A DNA stretch of 60,748 nucleotides, from NCBI GenBank assembly GCA_013538715.1, contig JACAFH010000007.1, positions 1 through 60,748 of the forward strand, given 5' to 3'. The DNA is from Candidatus Nitrosothermus koennekei (GTDB lineage Archaea > Thermoproteota > Nitrososphaeria > Nitrososphaerales > Nitrosocaldaceae). The notes under the pieces were generated by a model that searched no databases, was not told the DNA's origin, and saw only the letters and a program-made list of their open reading frames with translations. Position numbers and translations under genes: made by a program. Below, in pieces: positions 50,500 through 60,278 of this stretch. The stretch's first letter is position 1, and every line of letters begins with the position of its first letter.

Positions 50500-52221
50500 A
50501 TGGCTAGTAAAAAACTGAGTGTAATAATTGCTACTACACTTCTAATAGTGTTATCAATGACTATAACAGATGTTAGAATGGTATATGCTCAAGCAGTAGA
50601 TTGTAATAATCATACAATAGAGAGAGGTAACTTTGATAGTGATGCTGATGATGAGGTTAGAGTAGATCTTAATCTATATAACAATGGAGATATCATTATA
50701 TTAGATGGTAAGACATATACTGTAATGATTGCTGGTTCTTCATCCTCTTCTAGTCCATTCAATGGCACTAATAGCAATGACTTGATAGTTGGTACCAATA
50801 GCAATGATGTGATATATGGTAAGGAAGGAGATGATTTTATAGTTGGATTGGATGGCGATGATTATCTTTATGGAGATTATATAGAAGGAACTTCTAATGA
50901 TGATATACTAGAGGGAGGGGATGATATATTGTGTGGTAATGCTCGTTTTGATTATCTTTATGGAGATTGGATATTTGGAGATGCTGGCAATGATACAATA
51001 ACTGGAGGCAATGATGCACTAGATGGAGGAGAATATGGTGATAATCTTTATGGAGATTGGATATTTGGAGGTGCTGGCAATGATACAATAACTGGAGGGG
51101 ATGATACATTAAAGGGAGAATATGGTGATAATCTTTATGGAGATGTTATAAGTGGAGGATATGACAATGATACAATAACTGGAGGCAATGATACATTAAA
51201 TGGAGGAGATGGCTATAATGATCTTCATGGAGATGATATATATGGAGAAGATGGTGATGATACAATAACTGGAGGCAATGATACATTAAATGGAGGAGAT
51301 GGCTATGATTATCTTTATGGAGATTATATATTAGGATATGATGGTAATGATACAATAACTGGAGGCAATGATACATTAAATGGAGGAGATGGCTATGATA
51401 CGCTTCTTGGAGATCATATATATGGACATACTGGCAATGATACACTAACTGGAGGTAATGATACATTAAAGGGAGGAGATGGCAATGATGATCTTTATGG
51501 AGATGATATATTAGGATATGACAATGAGGTACCTGCAGATGATGGTGATGATACACTAACTGGAGGCAATGATACATTAAATGGAGGAGATGGCAATGAT
51601 TGGCTTTATGGAGATGGTATATCTGGATATGTTGGCAATGATACAGGATATGGAGGCAGTGATGTAATCGATGCTCAAGATGGTATAGTTAATAATGATA
51701 ATATAAATGGTGATTCTATATTTGCAGATATAGAAACAGTAACTCTAGGAGATCAAGATATATGTGCAAGTGATACAGGAGATACTGAAACAAACTGTGA
51801 GTATGATGATATATCAGCACTAGTAACATTCAAGGCAGAAGATCCTGTAGATGTAGATGATACGATAAACCTAGGTCAGAGCATAAACCTTGTATTCACA
51901 TCAAGTGTTGATAATCCAGTTACTATTACAGGTTTACAAGTAACAACACCTCTAAGCAATACATGCACATACAATATACTACCAGTAACAATACCTCCAA
52001 ATGGCTCATTCACAGCAACATATCCTGATGATTTTACAGGAGTAGGTTGTGATACAAGTACTGCTGGAACATACACAGTAATACTGACTACAGAGGTTGG
52101 AGATCCTATCATAACAGAGTTCAATGCATCATTTAACGTTGTACCAGAAGTTATTGTAGGAGCAATAGGTATAATAGGAACATCACTTGCTGTAATGATG
52201 CTTTATGCTAGAAGAAGATAA
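50500..52221 (+). CDS. Secreted RTX-like (calcium-binding repeat) protein with C-terminal anchor
   Basis: This 573-residue protein has a signal peptide (residues 1 to about 30, ending VYAQA). Residues 90-410 hold glycine/aspartate-rich repeats of the hemolysin-type Ca-binding class, such as TITGGNDTLNGGDGYDYLYG. In the centre the unit is 30 residues (90 bp) and nearly identical at DNA level. An Ig-like domain follows (VTITGLQVTTPLSNTC). The end is a membrane helix (VIVGAIGIIGTSLAVMMLY) and ARRR, like a sorting signal or C-terminal anchor. It should be a cell-surface or released protein folded by calcium. Confidence 0.85.
   Translation: MASKKLSVIIATTLLIVLSMTITDVRMVYAQAVDCNNHTIERGNFDSDADDEVRVDLNLYNNGDIIILDGKTYTVMIAGSSSSSSPFNGTNSNDLIVGTNSNDVIYGKEGDDFIVGLDGDDYLYGDYIEGTSNDDILEGGDDILCGNARFDYLYGDWIFGDAGNDTITGGNDALDGGEYGDNLYGDWIFGGAGNDTITGGDDTLKGEYGDNLYGDVISGGYDNDTITGGNDTLNGGDGYNDLHGDDIYGEDGDDTITGGNDTLNGGDGYDYLYGDYILGYDGNDTITGGNDTLNGGDGYDTLLGDHIYGHTGNDTLTGGNDTLKGGDGNDDLYGDDILGYDNEVPADDGDDTLTGGNDTLNGGDGNDWLYGDGISGYVGNDTGYGGSDVIDAQDGIVNNDNINGDSIFADIETVTLGDQDICASDTGDTETNCEYDDISALVTFKAEDPVDVDDTINLGQSINLVFTSSVDNPVTITGLQVTTPLSNTCTYNILPVTIPPNGSFTATYPDDFTGVGCDTSTAGTYTVILTTEVGDPIITEFNASFNVVPEVIVGAIGIIGTSLAVMMLYARRR
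51166..51615 (+). repeat. Tandem 90-bp coding repeats in the RTX-like gene
   Basis: About five units of roughly 90 bp share the core gatacaataactggaggca and ggaggagatggc. Each encodes a 30-residue turn: DT-[IL]-TGGNDTLxGGDGxxxLxGD followed by a variable tail. One unit is lengthened by an insertion coding NEVPAD. Near identity at the DNA level suggests recent expansion by slippage or recombination. Shorter, more diverged units occur upstream from about 50790. Confidence 0.85.
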
Positions 52222-52260: not shown

Positions 52261-52622
52261 TCATATAGGATAACTCTTTGCTAATCCTCTTCTTCTTGAG
52301 AAAAGTAATGGCAGATTATATATTCTTGATTCACTTACATTAAATAGATAGCATAACTCTTTAGCAGTATCCTTATCTAAAGATAAAAGTTCTACATAAT
52401 GATGTTAACTCATACTATCATTAAATCTATTCATGCTTTGAGTTGCTAAGGTAACATTAATGCATTCAATACTTCCCTAATAGCAAATGTATTGATTAGT
52501 TGTGCCTCATCTATATAGAGATAATATTTATTAGATAATGCTGATTTAGATTTTGTTGAAACATATAGCATATGAGTCAACAAATCTTATGATATCATCA
52601 GCAATTATTGATGATAGATCAA
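52261..52622 (-). pseudogene. HerA/VirB4-type ATPase, C-terminal fragment, decayed
   Basis: Reading leftwards and joining frames gives IDLSSIIADDIIRFVDSYA, then KYYLYIDEAQLINTFAIREV (Walker B DEAQ), then NVTLATQSMNRFNDSM, and finally YNLPLLFSRRRGLAKSYPI and a stop. This order (IDLS, IDEAQ, TQS, final Arg-rich tail) is that of plasmid or conjugation-type HerA/VirB4/TraG ATPases. At least two frameshifts and one in-frame stop are present. The fragment begins where the truncated integrase ends, implying a deletion that joined the two genes. Confidence 0.65.
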
Positions 52623-53216
52623 TAATCATTATCTTCTTCTCTTATCATGGAATATACGCATATTAAGCAACTCATAACATATAGTAATGCTCTATCCCTT
52701 GCTGGATACCTACTAATTCTAGGTACTGCTTCAATGAGTTTAAGGAACTCCTCTCTAGTAAGAAGGTCAGTTGCTCTTACCTTATCCTCCCTCATTGCCT
52801 TTCTCTTATAGCGATCTGGTTTGATATGAGCAACCTCTTCACAGTAGTTACCCTCACCCTCTGCTATCTCTTTGTGTTTAGCATAATGGACTAATCTCTT
52901 CAATGTCCTCAATGCTATAGTAATAGTTGATAGACTCCAACCCTTCCTATTCACTATTGCACTTGCTATCCTATCTATATCCTCCCTTGTTAGGTTTGTT
53001 ATATTTACATGCTTACCTGTATTAGTCATATGATCTGCATGCTTACCTGCAAATAACTCATGTATTATCTCCATTATCCTATATGTGAATTGAGCATATG
53101 ATTGGATCTTACCCTCTCCTATACCTGCTAATCTCAATGCATTAATGAACCTGTTTGCTAGTTCATAGTCATACCCTGCTTCCTTTACCCTTCTTAATAC
53201 TCTATTATCCTCTAGT
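52619..53216 (-). pseudogene. Tyrosine recombinase (integrase), N-terminal part, truncated
   Basis: Starting about 20 bases from the tRNA-Pro CCA, the frame reads VLRRVKEAGYDYELANRFIN, then SYAQFTYRIMEIIHELFAGK, then LTREDIDRIASAIVNRKGWS and LTREEFLKLIEAVPRISRYP. This is an archaeal SAM-like core-binding domain leading into the start of the catalytic domain (ARDRALLYVMS). The catalytic Arg, His and Tyr region is missing. There is no good start codon upstream of a TTG at 53137, so the 5' end is also damaged or was supplied by the uninserted form. A shorter relic lies at 10003-10215. Confidence 0.75.
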
Positions 53217-53237
53217 TATACACATATCAGAATATAA

Positions 53238-53315
53238 TGGTGGGGTCGGCCGGATTTGAACCGGCGACCTCGAGCGCCCAAGGCTCGAAGCATAACCAAG
53301 CTAGCCCACGACCCC
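53238..53315 (-). tRNA. tRNA-Pro (TGG), CCA encoded
   Basis: The acceptor stem is GGGGTCG with CGACCCC. The anticodon arm is CGAGC-CTTGGGC-GCTCG (anticodon TGG), the variable loop has 5 nt, and the T arm is GCCGG-TTCAAAT-CCGGC. The discriminator A is followed by an encoded CCA at 53238-53240. It has canonical length without an intron. Integrase sequence starts directly after the CCA, so its 3' end is a probable attachment site. Confidence 0.92.
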
Positions 53316-55006: not shown

Positions 55007-55468
55007 TTATTGCTCCCTATAGACTCTTAATCCTCCAAGTTTATAGATGGAGAATGTTATTATTACAATGGATAATACTGTAAGTAAAGGTGAATAGGCT
55101 GTTAATGTTAGACTTGCGCCCAATGGTAAAAGAAATGCTATAAATGAGAAACACGCTGGACATACACCAACTATAAAACCAAGTATAGAACCTATAGTAC
55201 CACTTTGTAGATATTTCTTTCTATTAATATTACAACAAGATATGCTCTTTGTATAAATGTAGAGTGTGATATAAATTCCAAATAGTATAGAAAACATTAT
55301 GTAAAGCGTTGCATTAAAAGGCTTGTTTAGTAGATCAACAAACCAGATCTCCCATGCTAAAGGTGTGTTTATGCTCTGTATTAAAGGTATTAAGAGGAAT
55401 ATTCCTAGAGAAGCAATTATTGTTATAATTGGTCTAGTTCTTATTGCATGAATAATCAAATAACTCAT
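55007..55468 (-). CDS. Four-helix membrane protein with CC and CPAC motifs (candidate metal-ion transporter)
   Basis: This 153-residue protein has four membrane helices. A cytosolic-type loop has SISCCNINRKKY, and the third helix carries GFIVGVCPACFSFIAFLLP. Paired cysteines in and next to membrane helices recall Hg(II) carriers such as MerT/MerC, though the sequence is not one I recognise as either. It ends a three-gene unit (56616 to 55007) and shares loop and helix patterns with the first gene of that unit. Mercury or soft-metal transport is inferred from context. Confidence 0.6.
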   Translation of the reverse strand: MSYLIIHAIRTRPIITIIASLGIFLLIPLIQSINTPLAWEIWFVDLLNKPFNATLYIMFSILFGIYITLYIYTKSISCCNINRKKYLQSGTIGSILGFIVGVCPACFSFIAFLLPLGASLTLTAYSPLLTVLSIVIITFSIYKLGGLRVYREQ

Positions 55469-55472
55469 ATAT

Positions 55473-56051
55473 TCACCTTAATAAGGGTTCCAGCACATTC
55501 TTTGCTGTAATATAACTTAATGGCCTTATATCGAAGTACCTTACTATTCCATCCTTATCCAGTACATACTTGCTATCTAAGTATCTTATATTATAATCCT
55601 TCACCGCTCTCTGCTCATTATCCTTCACTATATACCACGAGTCCCTTCCATACTGTTGTCTCCATTTAACCAACTCTTTATAATCTTCCGTCGGATCAAC
55701 GAATATTATAAGCACATTAAAACCAGCGTTTGTTTCGTCATAGTACTTTGCAAGCTGCTTTGCGCCGACTTGACATGGAGTGCACCATGTTGTTGTGAAG
55801 AATATGAATAATGGCTTGCCTTTTAATAGCTCTTTACTTATCTCTCCCTTCTCAATATCAAAGAGTTTAAAGTCTGGGGCAGTTGTGTTGATGGGTAAGC
55901 CTCCAATACTTGCACTGTTTGCTGTAGTAGGCGCTGTAGTAGGCGTAGGCTGTAAGTTTTGTGAGTTTACCATCAATATTATAACTATCAAAGCTATACC
56001 TATACAGCATCCTACTCCTATAACTATCATATAACGCTTTCTTGACTTCAT
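55473..56051 (-). CDS. Membrane-anchored TlpA/ResA-like thioredoxin
   Basis: This 192-residue protein has an N-terminal anchor (YMIVIGVGCCIGIALIVIIL) and a Thr/Pro linker. It then carries a TlpA domain with FFTTTWCTPCQVGAKQLAKY (active site WCTPC) and VLDKDGIVRYF. The thioredoxin domain would lie outside the membrane. Placed between two CC-type membrane proteins, with 1-4 base spacing, it probably keeps their cysteines reduced or passes metal thiolates; this is inference. The anchor helix itself carries a Cys pair. Confidence 0.8.
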   Translation of the reverse strand: MKSRKRYMIVIGVGCCIGIALIVIILMVNSQNLQPTPTTAPTTANSASIGGLPINTTAPDFKLFDIEKGEISKELLKGKPLFIFFTTTWCTPCQVGAKQLAKYYDETNAGFNVLIIFVDPTEDYKELVKWRQQYGRDSWYIVKDNEQRAVKDYNIRYLDSKYVLDKDGIVRYFDIRPLSYITAKNVLEPLLR

Positions 56052-56052
56052 A

Positions 56053-56616
56053 CTATACCACCTTATGCCTTCTATTAATACTAGTATTTACGATGTTCTT
56101 TGCTGTAAGGTAAAGAGATGCTATCAACAATGCTATGGTTATCGAGGCAAACTGAATACTATACACAGCAAGATAACTAAATGCCAATGAACCTATAGCA
56201 TAAACCAATATGCCACCACTACAACATGCAAAACTTGTAAAGAAGGCAGGTATAAATGATAAGAACGTTCTATTCGTCATGTTAATACTACAGCATCTAA
56301 CCCTTCTTCCATGTATTAATAATGCAACATTTAACCCTACTAGGAATGCTGTTATTATAATGAAAGCAATAGCATGATAGAATGCAAAAAAGTAAACATG
56401 ATTAGATAATGCTGCAATTATACCTATGTTTGTGAATCTTATGGTTGGTATTATTGGGAATATCTTTGCTAGATCTACTGTTGGATAGTATGATACTATA
56501 CCCACTATAAACATATAGGCAATTGAATATGCTATTGTTATTACTATTATCATCTTAAATCTCTCTGCTATAACAGTCTTGAGTAATACACGAAGACTAT
56601 TAGTCATCTCAGCCAT
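56053..56616 (-). CDS. Membrane protein with paired cysteines (candidate metal-ion transporter)
   Basis: This 187-residue protein has about five membrane helices. The loop GRRVRCCSINMTNRTFLSF and the following helix FFTSFACCSGGILVYAIGSL each hold a Cys pair, in the same order as in the protein at 55007 (SCCNIN, then CPAC). The two look like distant paralogues. It is the first gene after the divergent promoter shared with the HxlR regulator. No MerP-type periplasmic protein is seen. Transport of Hg(II) or a similar thiophilic ion is inferred. Confidence 0.6.
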   Translation of the reverse strand: MAEMTNSLRVLLKTVIAERFKMIIVITIAYSIAYMFIVGIVSYYPTVDLAKIFPIIPTIRFTNIGIIAALSNHVYFFAFYHAIAFIIITAFLVGLNVALLIHGRRVRCCSINMTNRTFLSFIPAFFTSFACCSGGILVYAIGSLAFSYLAVYSIQFASITIALLIASLYLTAKNIVNTSINRRHKVV

Positions 56617-56631
56617 ATATTTACACCATAT

Positions 56632-56675
56632 TAACTATATATCGAATAGTATTTAAACTATGAAGTATATAGTTA
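56632..56675. promoter_or_regulatory. Inverted repeat in the divergent promoter of the metal island
   Basis: TAACTATATA (56632-56641) and TATATAGTTA (56666-56675) are perfect 10-bp inverted arms with 24 bases between. They lie between the divergent starts at 56616 and 56686 and overlap the TATA-like tatttaaac. Such symmetry suits a dimeric repressor such as the HxlR protein encoded next to it. Confidence 0.6.
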
Positions 56676-56682
56676 GATAGTA
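56646..56682 (+). promoter_or_regulatory. 37-bp element, copy A (probable HxlR operator/promoter)
   Basis: The element runs from atagtatttaaactat to ttagatagta, ending 4 bases before the regulator ATG. A copy with 34 of 37 identical bases lies in inverted orientation at 57136-57172. The central tttaaa could serve as TATA box for both divergent transcripts. It overlaps the inverted repeat at 56632-56675. Binding by the adjacent HxlR protein is inference. Confidence 0.7.
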
Positions 56683-56685
56683 AGT

Positions 56686-57084
56686 ATGAGTAAGGATAGT
56701 AAGAATGATGATAGTAGCAGTGGTAACGACAATGTAATCTGCCTCTGTCCATTAGAGGGGATAATAGATATCATAAGCAAAAAGTGGTCATTGCTTATAA
56801 TAAATGAGATAGGTAATCATGGCAAACTAAGGTTCAACCATCTTATGAGGGAGCTTAGACCCGTAAGCCCAAAGACATTAGCAGATATGCTTAAGGAGTT
56901 GCATAATGCAGGATTGATAGATAGACGTGTATATAATGAGATACCTCCTAGGGTAGAGTATACATTAACCGATGAGGGTAAGAGTCTAAGGGAAGCGATA
57001 ATTCCACTTTTAAGATGGGCTATAGAAAGAGACGATGCTGCTATTGCACACTGTTCGTGCACATTAATAAGGAGCAGAGAGTAG
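56686..57084 (+). CDS. HxlR-family regulator with CxC and CSC motifs (probable metal/thiol sensor)
   Basis: This 132-residue winged-helix protein is of the HxlR class: ICLCPLEGIIDIISKKWSLL, then GKLRFNHLMRELRPVSPKTL and PRVEYTLTDEGKSL. Besides the conserved HxlR cysteine it has a second one nearby (CLCP) and a C-terminal AHCSCT. This cysteine set could bind Hg(II) or sense thiol oxidation. The gene lies between the divergent transport operon and the merA operon, with matching 37-bp elements on both sides, so it likely controls both. Confidence 0.8.
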   Translation: MSKDSKNDDSSSGNDNVICLCPLEGIIDIISKKWSLLIINEIGNHGKLRFNHLMRELRPVSPKTLADMLKELHNAGLIDRRVYNEIPPRVEYTLTDEGKSLREAIIPLLRWAIERDDAAIAHCSCTLIRSRE

Positions 57085-57135
57085 ATTCAGATGTAGACTT
57101 GCCTAACATAACTAGTAGCTATGCTAATGGATATC

Positions 57136-57172
57136 TACTATCTAATTATAAACTTTATAGTTTAAATACTAT
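57136..57172 (-). promoter_or_regulatory. 37-bp element, copy B (inverted), upstream of the microprotein and merA
   Basis: Reverse-complemented, it reads the same as copy A at 56646-56682 except for three bases. On the plus strand tttaaata (57161-57168) lies about 30 bases before GTG 57195, a suitable TATA distance for a leaderless transcript. The matching elements on both sides of the regulator gene suggest one regulator controls both operons. They also form an inverted repeat that could allow inversion of the 0.5-kb segment. Confidence 0.7.
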
Positions 57173-57194
57173 AGTTTCGATAGTAAAGGCAGAG

Positions 57195-57344
57195 GTGAAT
57201 TGTAGAATGTGTAACTGCTGTGGTATGAGTGACAAGGATAAGAAAGAATGGGAAGAATGGACTAAAGAGGATGGACAAGGCAGTAATGAGTATACACAGA
57301 AGGTAAAGACAAAGAGAGGTATAACGAAGCGCTTTAGATTCTAA
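57195..57344 (+). CDS. Cys-rich microprotein upstream of merA
   Basis: From GTG 57195 (or ATG 57207) the frame encodes about 49 residues beginning MNCRMCNCCGMSDKDKKEWE and ending in a basic tail. Four Cys fall within the first nine residues (C-x2-C-x-CC). It is followed 17 bases later by the merA ATG. The charged, soluble body and the Cys cluster suggest a small metal-binding or delivery protein, perhaps for Hg(II); no family is recognised. Its placement between operator copy B and merA supports a real gene. Confidence 0.55.
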   Translation: MNCRMCNCCGMSDKDKKEWEEWTKEDGQGSNEYTQKVKTKRGITKRFRF

Positions 57345-57361
57345 CACTAGAGGTGATAAAG

Positions 57362-58774
57362 ATGGCAAATAACTACAATCTTATTATTTTGGGTAACGGT
57401 GCTGCTGCATTCTCTGCTGCAATAAAGGCTACTGAGATAACCGATGGTAAAGCAAACATACTCATGATAGGCTCTGGAGAATTAGGGGGAACATGTGTAA
57501 ATGTAGGCTGTGTACCATCAAAGTACTTACTCGCTGCATCAAATACATACTTTAATATTCAGCATCCTAGGTTCAAAGGTATAGAACCAGTTAAGCCCAA
57601 TATAAGATTCAAGGATGTAATGCATGGTTTAAGATCATTGGTCTCTGAACTAAGAGAAAGCAAATATGCTGATATACTCAAATCGTATACAAACATAGAG
57701 TATATAGAAGGCAAAGCAAGATTCTCGTCATTTAACGAGGTAGAGGTAAACGATAGAGTATTCAAAGGAGATGCTATCATCGTAGCAACAGGTTCTAGAC
57801 CAAGCGTACCAAATATAGAAGGATTGAATGATATAGATTATCTAACAAGTAATACTATATGGGAAGTAGATGAATTACCTAATAGTATAGCAGTTATAGG
57901 TGCAGGTGCAGTAGGGCTTGAGATAGGACAAGCATTACTTCATTTTGGCTCAGTTGTCACTGTTATAGATGTTGCTAACAGGGTCATAGCAAATATGGAG
58001 CCAGAGTTATCATTGCTATTGCAGGAGAGGCTTGTAAGGGAAGGCATGAATCTGTATATGAAGGCTAGGATAAGCAGCATAAAGAGAGCCGATGGTAAGA
58101 AAGTTTTAGATATTATAACCTCTAATGGTAAAGAGCATCTAGAGGTTGATCAGGTATTAGTTGCAACTGGCAGGTTACCCAATACAGATGCTCTTAGATT
58201 AGATAGAGCAGATATAGAAGTAAATAAGCAAGGTTTTATAATAACCGATGATATGATGCAAACCAGTAATCCTCATGTATATGCTGCTGGTGATTGTATA
58301 GCAAAGAGATTCATGTTAGAGACAGTTGCTGCAAGAGAAGGAGTAATAGCAGCAGATAACATATTTGGTATTAGAGCAAATATGGATTATTTACATATTC
58401 CTTCAGTAGTGTTTACAACTCCACAGATAGCATCGGTAGGCTTTGGGGAAGAAGAATATGTTAACAAATACGGTTCATGTTCATGTAGGATTATTAAACT
58501 CGATAACATACCAAAGGCCATTATACTAAATGAAGATGAAGGGTTGGTGAAGATGGTTATAGATCCTAGTAACAGAAGGATAGTTGGTTTGCATATTGCA
58601 GCATATAATGCATCCGAGTACATAATTGAAGGTTCTCTTGCGATAAAGCTAGGATTAACAGTAGATGATATAATTAATACAGTACACGCATTTCCAACAC
58701 TCGCAGAATCAATAAAGATAGTAGCACAATCATTCATTAGAGATGTTAAGAGGATGAGTTGTTGTATGGAGTGA
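57362..58774 (+). CDS. merA: Mercuric reductase-like flavoprotein disulfide reductase
   Basis: This 470-residue FAD/NAD(P)H enzyme has LIILGNGAAAFSAAIKATE (FAD site), the redox pair GGTCVNVGCVPSK, AVIGAGAVGLEIGQALLHFG (NAD(P)H site), YAAGDCIAKRFMLETVAARE and the dimer-interface AFPTLAESI. The last residues are KRMSCCME, the C-terminal vicinal Cys pair that passes Hg(II) into the MerA active site. The N-terminal heavy-metal domain of some MerA proteins is absent. I take ATG 57362, after aggtgat, rather than GTG 57353. It should reduce Hg(II) to volatile Hg(0). Confidence 0.88.
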   Translation: MANNYNLIILGNGAAAFSAAIKATEITDGKANILMIGSGELGGTCVNVGCVPSKYLLAASNTYFNIQHPRFKGIEPVKPNIRFKDVMHGLRSLVSELRESKYADILKSYTNIEYIEGKARFSSFNEVEVNDRVFKGDAIIVATGSRPSVPNIEGLNDIDYLTSNTIWEVDELPNSIAVIGAGAVGLEIGQALLHFGSVVTVIDVANRVIANMEPELSLLLQERLVREGMNLYMKARISSIKRADGKKVLDIITSNGKEHLEVDQVLVATGRLPNTDALRLDRADIEVNKQGFIITDDMMQTSNPHVYAAGDCIAKRFMLETVAAREGVIAADNIFGIRANMDYLHIPSVVFTTPQIASVGFGEEEYVNKYGSCSCRIIKLDNIPKAIILNEDEGLVKMVIDPSNRRIVGLHIAAYNASEYIIEGSLAIKLGLTVDDIINTVHAFPTLAESIKIVAQSFIRDVKRMSCCME

Positions 58775-59882: not shown

Positions 59883-60278
59883 TTAAGGCTTATAACTAAA
59901 CATAGAAGAAGGATAGAGAAGCAACAACTCATATTATCATTTCTAGCATACAACAAGTTCAGAGAAGAACTCAAACAGAAGCGTTGTGGAATAATATAAT
60001 CGTAGAGAATGTAAACCCAGCATACACCTCACAAATATGTGTAAGATGCGGCTCTAAAAATGAACAGACAACACAGAGAAGGTTCAAGTGTGAAAAATGT
60101 CATTGGAAAATGAATACTGATTATTAATGCTTCTCTGAACATAGTATTAAGGTATGCTAAGGAACTAGGTATTAAGATAAGATATAGTGGTAATAATACT
60201 GTAAACAACAATACTAGCAATAGCATACAGGGAAGGTAATAGTACAATGACTGACATGTGCTGTTGTCCCTCTGCAAG

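Follow-up and report, generated by a model that had tools for sequence, protein, structure and literature searches.

In a 2012 survey of mer operons, archaeal operons often consisted of merA alone, and transport genes were absent from archaea except for one merP (PMC3466566). A 2021 survey of MerA in 84,032 genomes makes no mention of HxlR or of the partner proteins considered here (PMC8261052), and our own literature search, outside which subscription papers and preprints fell, returned no description of merA with HxlR, TlpA or CcdA. Here we describe a merA locus in a DNA stretch of 60,748 nucleotides (the window, contig C32) from Candidatus Nitrosothermus koennekei, an ammonia-oxidiser-type archaeon of the class Nitrososphaeria with a genome of 1.46 Mb (96% complete). 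An initial annotation had proposed a mercury detoxification island in this window, composed of a reductase (MerA), a regulator (HxlR), a Cys microprotein, two membrane proteins (memA and memB) and a thioredoxin (TlpA), and these six genes and their divergent operon arrangement were borne out (Table 1). HxlR, the microprotein and merA lie on the plus strand, divergent from memA, TlpA and memB on the minus strand. The latter three follow each other in this order with 1-4 bases between them, and therefore constitute one operon. Based on the findings below, we postulate that this is probably an archaeal mercury-resistance island for the import and reduction of Hg(II), in which TlpA would take the place of MerP.

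Identity of the reductase

The reductase reached 551 bits with the MerA equivalog model TIGR02053, for which the curated cut-off is 454. Meanwhile, the lipoamide-dehydrogenase model gave 366 bits, under its own cut-off of 409, and the cut-offs of RclA and hypothiocyanous-acid reductase were not reached. The closest solved structures in the PDB are mercuric reductases. Its redox motif is GGTCVNVGCVP and its C terminus reads SCCME, in agreement with the MerA-type C-terminal CC first noticed in it, and this CC was found in all complete MerA rows examined and in no lipoamide dehydrogenase row. The Phe within its HAFPTLAES segment aligned to the Tyr of 5x1y, which is the archaeal Tyr605 site, and Phe at this site has been used as a mark of archaeal MerA (PMC3466566). 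The initial annotation had also called for a MerA phylogeny. In the tree the protein fell inside the MerA group, apart from the dihydrolipoamide dehydrogenases (SH-like approximate likelihood ratio test, SH-aLRT, 99), ruling out that it is one of them. By its sequence this is a genuine MerA, with predicted Hg(II) reductase activity.

Membrane proteins and thioredoxin

The initial annotation recognised no MerT, MerP, MerR or MerB. The absence of classical MerP, MerR and MerB from the island stands, and the only two HMA (MerP-type) matches of the genome lie in a single 816-amino-acid frame on another contig. The absence of MerT was too strong a statement, because memA appears to be a remote relative of MerT. 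Among 21 memA homologues, MerT was the most frequent Pfam match, and merT_RC607 was the most frequent NCBIfam match (4/21, best 4.8e-5), followed by PRK13751 MerT; all of these scores were under the curated cut-offs. When 398 genomes were scanned blind with PF02411, eight matches were obtained, including two memA genes (8.0e-5 and 0.003) and one memA paralogue of 343 amino acids, and a scan of the genome contigs with memA as query returned only two relatives. Residues P123, F126, C131 and C132 are invariant across the memA alignment (21 rows), and the charge rule predicts the loop Cys to lie on the cytoplasmic side. At L171:2802-3587, directly downstream of merA and with an ArsR gene on its other side, a memA protein is fused to a C-terminal HMA (MerP-like) domain. 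In size memA departs from MerT, since it has 187 amino acids and about four transmembrane (TM) helices against about 116 and three. We refer to memA as a remote relative that may work like MerT, and not as a member of the MerT family, because its homologues score under the cut-offs and the hhalign comparison with one MerT was not significant. Paralogues of memA with roughly 290-410 amino acids and CPTC in a helix were observed in Nitrosopumilaceae-type and other families, mostly away from merA (L038, L041, L042, L044-L047, L050, L189:7004-7942).

The profile searches that revealed the MerT likeness of memA through its homologues left memB outside any family, with no fitting Pfam or NCBIfam model. 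Four helices with both termini inside are predicted, with the loop Cys pair, which is CxxC in relatives, in the cytoplasm and CPAC in TM3. The charge bias is pronounced, with 9-16 Lys and Arg residues on the side of the Cys loop and 1-2 on the other. A cytoplasmic Cys pair is also part of the logic of MerT, MerC and MerF. A DsbB/VKOR-like disulfide relay was considered for memB and disfavoured, as its loop pair is predicted to be cytoplasmic and not extracytoplasmic. These results agree with the earlier description of two membrane proteins each having a CC loop and a helix Cys pair (CPAC in memB, CC in memA), and the Pfam and NCBIfam searches placed neither of them in an unrelated, well characterised family. 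The hhalign probability between memA and memB was 20%, and the two may or may not be related. memB may be a second Hg(II) carrier or a reductant carrier for TlpA.

The thioredoxin was correctly anticipated as an extracytoplasmic TlpA protein, with WCTPC located behind an N-terminal membrane anchor. It displays the AhpC-TSA/Redoxin fold and the CxxC motif, and its profile matches ResA structures. With the ResA and StoA models it scores under the cut-offs. In every complete copy of the island it is encoded between memA and memB. The only MerT match above cut-off in the 398 genomes was a single polypeptide in which MerT is combined with HMA and TlpA/ResA domains (MerTP_fusion 1.6e-27, ResA 8.3e-17). 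This gene belongs to an archaeon of the same phylum (L180 / L188:8069-9223, G384:C50) and is located beside ribosomal protein genes, not merA. The fusion provides independent evidence that a TlpA domain may act with a MerT-type transporter. A small thioredoxin-like protein with a CPLC motif also occurs in merA islands (L092:5274-5561, L032:2505-2807).

Distribution and modular history

Relatives found with the window genes belong to the class Nitrososphaeria, and the five other surveyed genomes of the host's own family have neither merA nor memA. In Nitrososphaeraceae, memA-TlpA-memB is divergent from HxlR-merA at L031 and L032 (one genome) and at L033. The same layout was found in archaeon HRbin02 of Candidatus Calditenuaceae (L030) and, with an exchanged TlpA, at L034, and the gene set recurs on contig L029, which is without merA. 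In the Nitrosopumilaceae-type genome of L082 (family f2), HxlR is divergent from microprotein-MerA-TlpA-memB, and more distant memA-TlpA(-memB-like) sets stand beside merA at L086, L089, L091 and L093. Beyond the class, memA-TlpA is divergent from merA at L168-L170 and memA adjoins merA at L171; these loci represent three further families of the phylum (f32, f47 and f28).

The initial annotation had suggested a survey of co-occurrence with merA, and this revealed that merA is strongly linked, across families, to TlpA, HxlR and the membrane proteins. A member of the memA/memB superfamily was found at most 7 kb from 13 of the 36 merA loci. When loci were found from the MerA side alone (250 genomes of the class), 12 of 35 had such a neighbour, while about 0.03 would be expected by chance in the 0.44 Mb examined (about 25 memA-like genes in these 250 genomes), an expectation that ignores shared ancestry; at least eight families are involved. 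Other genera and families have the same genes, with cysteines that are invariant or nearly so, and the set thus represents more than chance. That an ordinary merA merely lies by unrelated membrane and redox genes is hardly credible and already contradicted: nothing but the wide distribution of TlpA proteins speaks for it, against a gene order and divergent layout that are conserved among several genera, the many-family co-occurrence, the gene fusions and the common promoter elements.

In the trees, the window MerA grouped with L096, L089, L090 and L091, and their deep clade is distinct from that of the Nitrososphaeraceae MerA. Meanwhile, the window TlpA grouped with Nitrososphaeraceae and HRbin02 proteins (100/99), as did memA, less strongly supported (93/89). 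Two or more lineages of MerA have thus been combined with the module, in keeping with a role linked to Hg(II).

Regulator, promoter elements and small proteins

The regulator scored 84.7 bits with PF01638 (HxlR), for which the cut-off is 20.8, and takes the place of the MerR or ArsR regulator of classical mer operons. Its Cys motifs are those first reported, C19-x-C21 and a CSC close to the C terminus. CLCPL and HC[STA]C are both present in all nine merA-linked HxlR proteins, whereas neither of two paralogues encoded beside islands has the complete pair. These cysteines may sense Hg(II) or thiol stress. Two inverted copies of a 37-bp element are identical at 34 of 37 positions (shuffled maximum 25). 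As this promoter element is common to both operons, they form one regulon. At island promoters of relatives, the palindrome ATAGTNACTAT was found in ten exact copies at seven loci, with about 0.35 expected.

The Cys microprotein is present, although with three cysteines (MCNCCG) rather than the four initially counted if translation begins at ATG 57207. This start, closely 3' of an AGAGGTG ribosome site, is more likely than GTG 57195; likewise, ATG 57362 is the more likely start of MerA over GTG 57353. The frame holding the microprotein displayed no family match and no TRASH signature. Short MCxCC proteins are encoded directly upstream of merA at L030, L031/L052, L035/L058 and L059, and the variant at L034 begins MGNCC, with the first Cys missing. 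A Cys-rich protein occupies the same spot at L082 and L089, with weak TRASH-family matches at L089. By analogy to NmerA elsewhere, the microprotein might hand Hg(II) to MerA.

Other small proteins were observed in related islands. In the second island copy at L032 (4236-4492) the microprotein frame is shifted (MCDCCCGTSEMSEK, then another frame), which suggests decay or a sequence error. Unclassified proteins with two TM helices and about 64-92 amino acids, starting near [MF][FL]CC..GL, are encoded between HxlR and merA at L030:12330-12521, L031:5468-5743, L032:4493-4750, L033:8206-8463 and L034:1521-1772, and the window is without them. They are perhaps another small carrier.

Proposed mechanism and alternative explanations

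The initial annotation had envisaged a transporter formed by the two membrane proteins and TlpA, which would deliver Hg(II) to the microprotein and MerA. We propose a route of this kind, leading from TlpA through memA. The WCxxC dithiol of the anchored TlpA would capture Hg(II) at the outer face, in MerP's stead. By thiol exchange the ion would then pass from TlpA to the intramembrane CC of memA, and possibly to the CPAC of memB, and from there to the cytoplasmic Cys or Cys pair of memA and memB. The microprotein, which sits at the spot occupied elsewhere by archaeal TRASH-domain proteins or fused NmerA, would deliver the ion to the CC at the MerA C terminus for reduction to Hg(0). HxlR would sense Hg(II) or thiol stress via its CxC and HCxC cysteines and control both operons.

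Several observations weigh against this proposal. Neither memA nor memB of the window matched a MerT model of Pfam or NCBIfam, and hhalign of both with MerT (pMOL30 MerT) and CcdA was not significant. Their AlphaFold models, built on three sequences, are poor (predicted local distance difference test scores of 66 and 57), and the memB model had no match in the PDB. In addition, memA-TlpA pairs occur without merA within reach (L172-L174, L040), genome G201 has the module with no MerA above threshold, and many archaeal merA loci are without the module. Since memA-TlpA is found with no merA nearby, thiophilic metals other than mercury may also be handled by the module.

The main rival to Hg(II) import is thiol repair, in which TlpA, with memB (and memA) acting as transmembrane dithiol electron carriers, would maintain thiols outside the cytoplasm in the reduced state during Hg(II) or oxidative stress, protecting proteins with no import of Hg(II). 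We regard this as unlikely, albeit with some basis. TlpA/ResA proteins are normally dithiol reductases, and the HxlR relatives RrpA and RrpB are redox regulators. At L034 the position of memB is taken by a CcdA-like protein, which has the NPCGFAMLPAYISYF motif and matches CcdA 5vkv weakly (E 0.05), and at L092 a memB-like protein is paired with a DsbA-type thioredoxin beside HxlR-merA. However, the membrane-protein profile A1 has no match to the CcdA-like protein, and memB is predicted to have its loop Cys pair in the cytoplasm, while the Cys loop of DsbB/VKOR is on the outer side. Thiol repair would also leave aside that memA-type proteins are MerT-like, one of them being fused to a metal-binding HMA domain, and that a MerT-MerP-TlpA fusion exists.

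Copper or general soft-metal homeostasis, with a MerA-like enzyme that acts on a different substrate or is encoded alongside to be regulated jointly, is considerably less probable still. Ammonia-oxidising archaea depend on copper, memA homologues occur without merA, and close to the memA-TlpA pair of L040 a P-type ATPase and an HMA-domain protein are encoded. Nevertheless, the enzyme clears the cut-off of the MerA model but neither that of RclA nor that of hypothiocyanous-acid reductase, the linkage to merA extends over many families, and the membrane part, in memA homologues, matches MerT models and not copper-importer models.

Returning to Hg(II) import and reduction, a broader proposal is evenly poised between holding and failing: that this is a distinct archaeal mode of Hg(II) uptake, which extends across Thermoproteota and has been combined with two or more lineages of MerA. 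In it, MerP would be replaced by an anchored thioredoxin, and a pair of dithiol proteins with four helices each, one derived from MerT and the other belonging to a new family, would carry Hg(II) inward under an Hg-sensing HxlR. If the reading as an Hg(II) import and reduction island is right, the transporter was too diverged for the mer surveys to notice. The channelling of Hg(II) to MerA in archaea would then be explained, thioredoxins would have a role in metal delivery, and accessory modules of mer would be seen to move from one MerA lineage to another.

Gene coordinates and flanking DNA

Table 1. Features of the merA island, in window positions.
Feature	Position	Strand	Characteristics
memB	55007..55468	-	153 amino acids; 4 TM, N-in/C-in (predicted); C78-C79 in cytoplasmic loop, C103-P-A-C106 in TM3
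TlpA/ResA-type membrane-anchored extracytoplasmic thioredoxin	55473..56051	-	WCTPC; AhpC-TSA 6.2e-18, over cut-off
memA	56053..56616	-	187-amino-acid membrane protein; C131-C132 at start of TM helix, C108-C109 in cytoplasmic loop (predicted)
37-bp promoter/operator element, copy 1	56646..56682	+	Lies between the divergent operons; has a TTTAAA box; spacing to HxlR of leaderless type
HxlR-family regulator	56686..57084	+	HxlR 4.1e-24; cysteine motifs CLCPL and HCSC
37-bp element, copy 2	57136..57172	-	Upstream of microprotein-merA
Cys microprotein MCNCCGMSDKDKKEWEEWTKEDG...	57207..57344	+	45 amino acids; alternative GTG start 57195
MerA, mercuric reductase without NmerA domain	57362..58774	+	Open reading frame readable from GTG 57353; TIGR02053 551 bits

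About 2 kb to the left of the island, an integrase-like remnant (52619-53137) lies beside a tRNA-Pro gene (53238-53315). Integration of the island at this tRNA was considered and rejected, as no att-like direct repeat of at least 16 bases was found. Farther to the left (50500-52221), a secreted-type protein of 573 amino acids consists of RTX-like GGNDTLNGGDGYD repeats, here in an archaeon. To the right of the island, a fragment at 59984-60127 resembles, as judged by eye, the zinc-ribbon end of a TnpB transposase.

Comparison with known systems

The Sulfolobus islands with ArsR/MerR, TRASH (MerH) and merA resemble this locus in that an archaeal MerA is accompanied by a small Cys-rich protein encoded directly upstream. 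They differ in that the window peptide is without TRASH signature, the regulator is an HxlR and a membrane module is present. Small two-TM proteins with CC, reminiscent of MerE, MerF and MerC, are encoded in related islands (L086, L089, L093; L030-L034), although they are absent from the window and no family reaches its cut-off. The regulator shares the winged helix of HxlR proteins such as RrpA/RrpB, YodB and HypR, and the paired CLCP and HC[STA]C motifs set the merA-linked members apart. Similarly, TlpA has the anchored extracytoplasmic fold with WCxxC of TlpA/ResA/StoA thioredoxins (PF00578), but is encoded in an operon context of merA and MerT-like proteins. Finally, memA has in common with MerT and MerTP fusions (PF02411, merT_RC607, PRK13751) a helix Cys pair followed by a hairpin, cytoplasmic Cys and linkage to merA, and the memA-HMA fusion parallels MerTP. 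Unlike MerT, memA carries an N-terminal extension, and its partner is TlpA instead of MerP.

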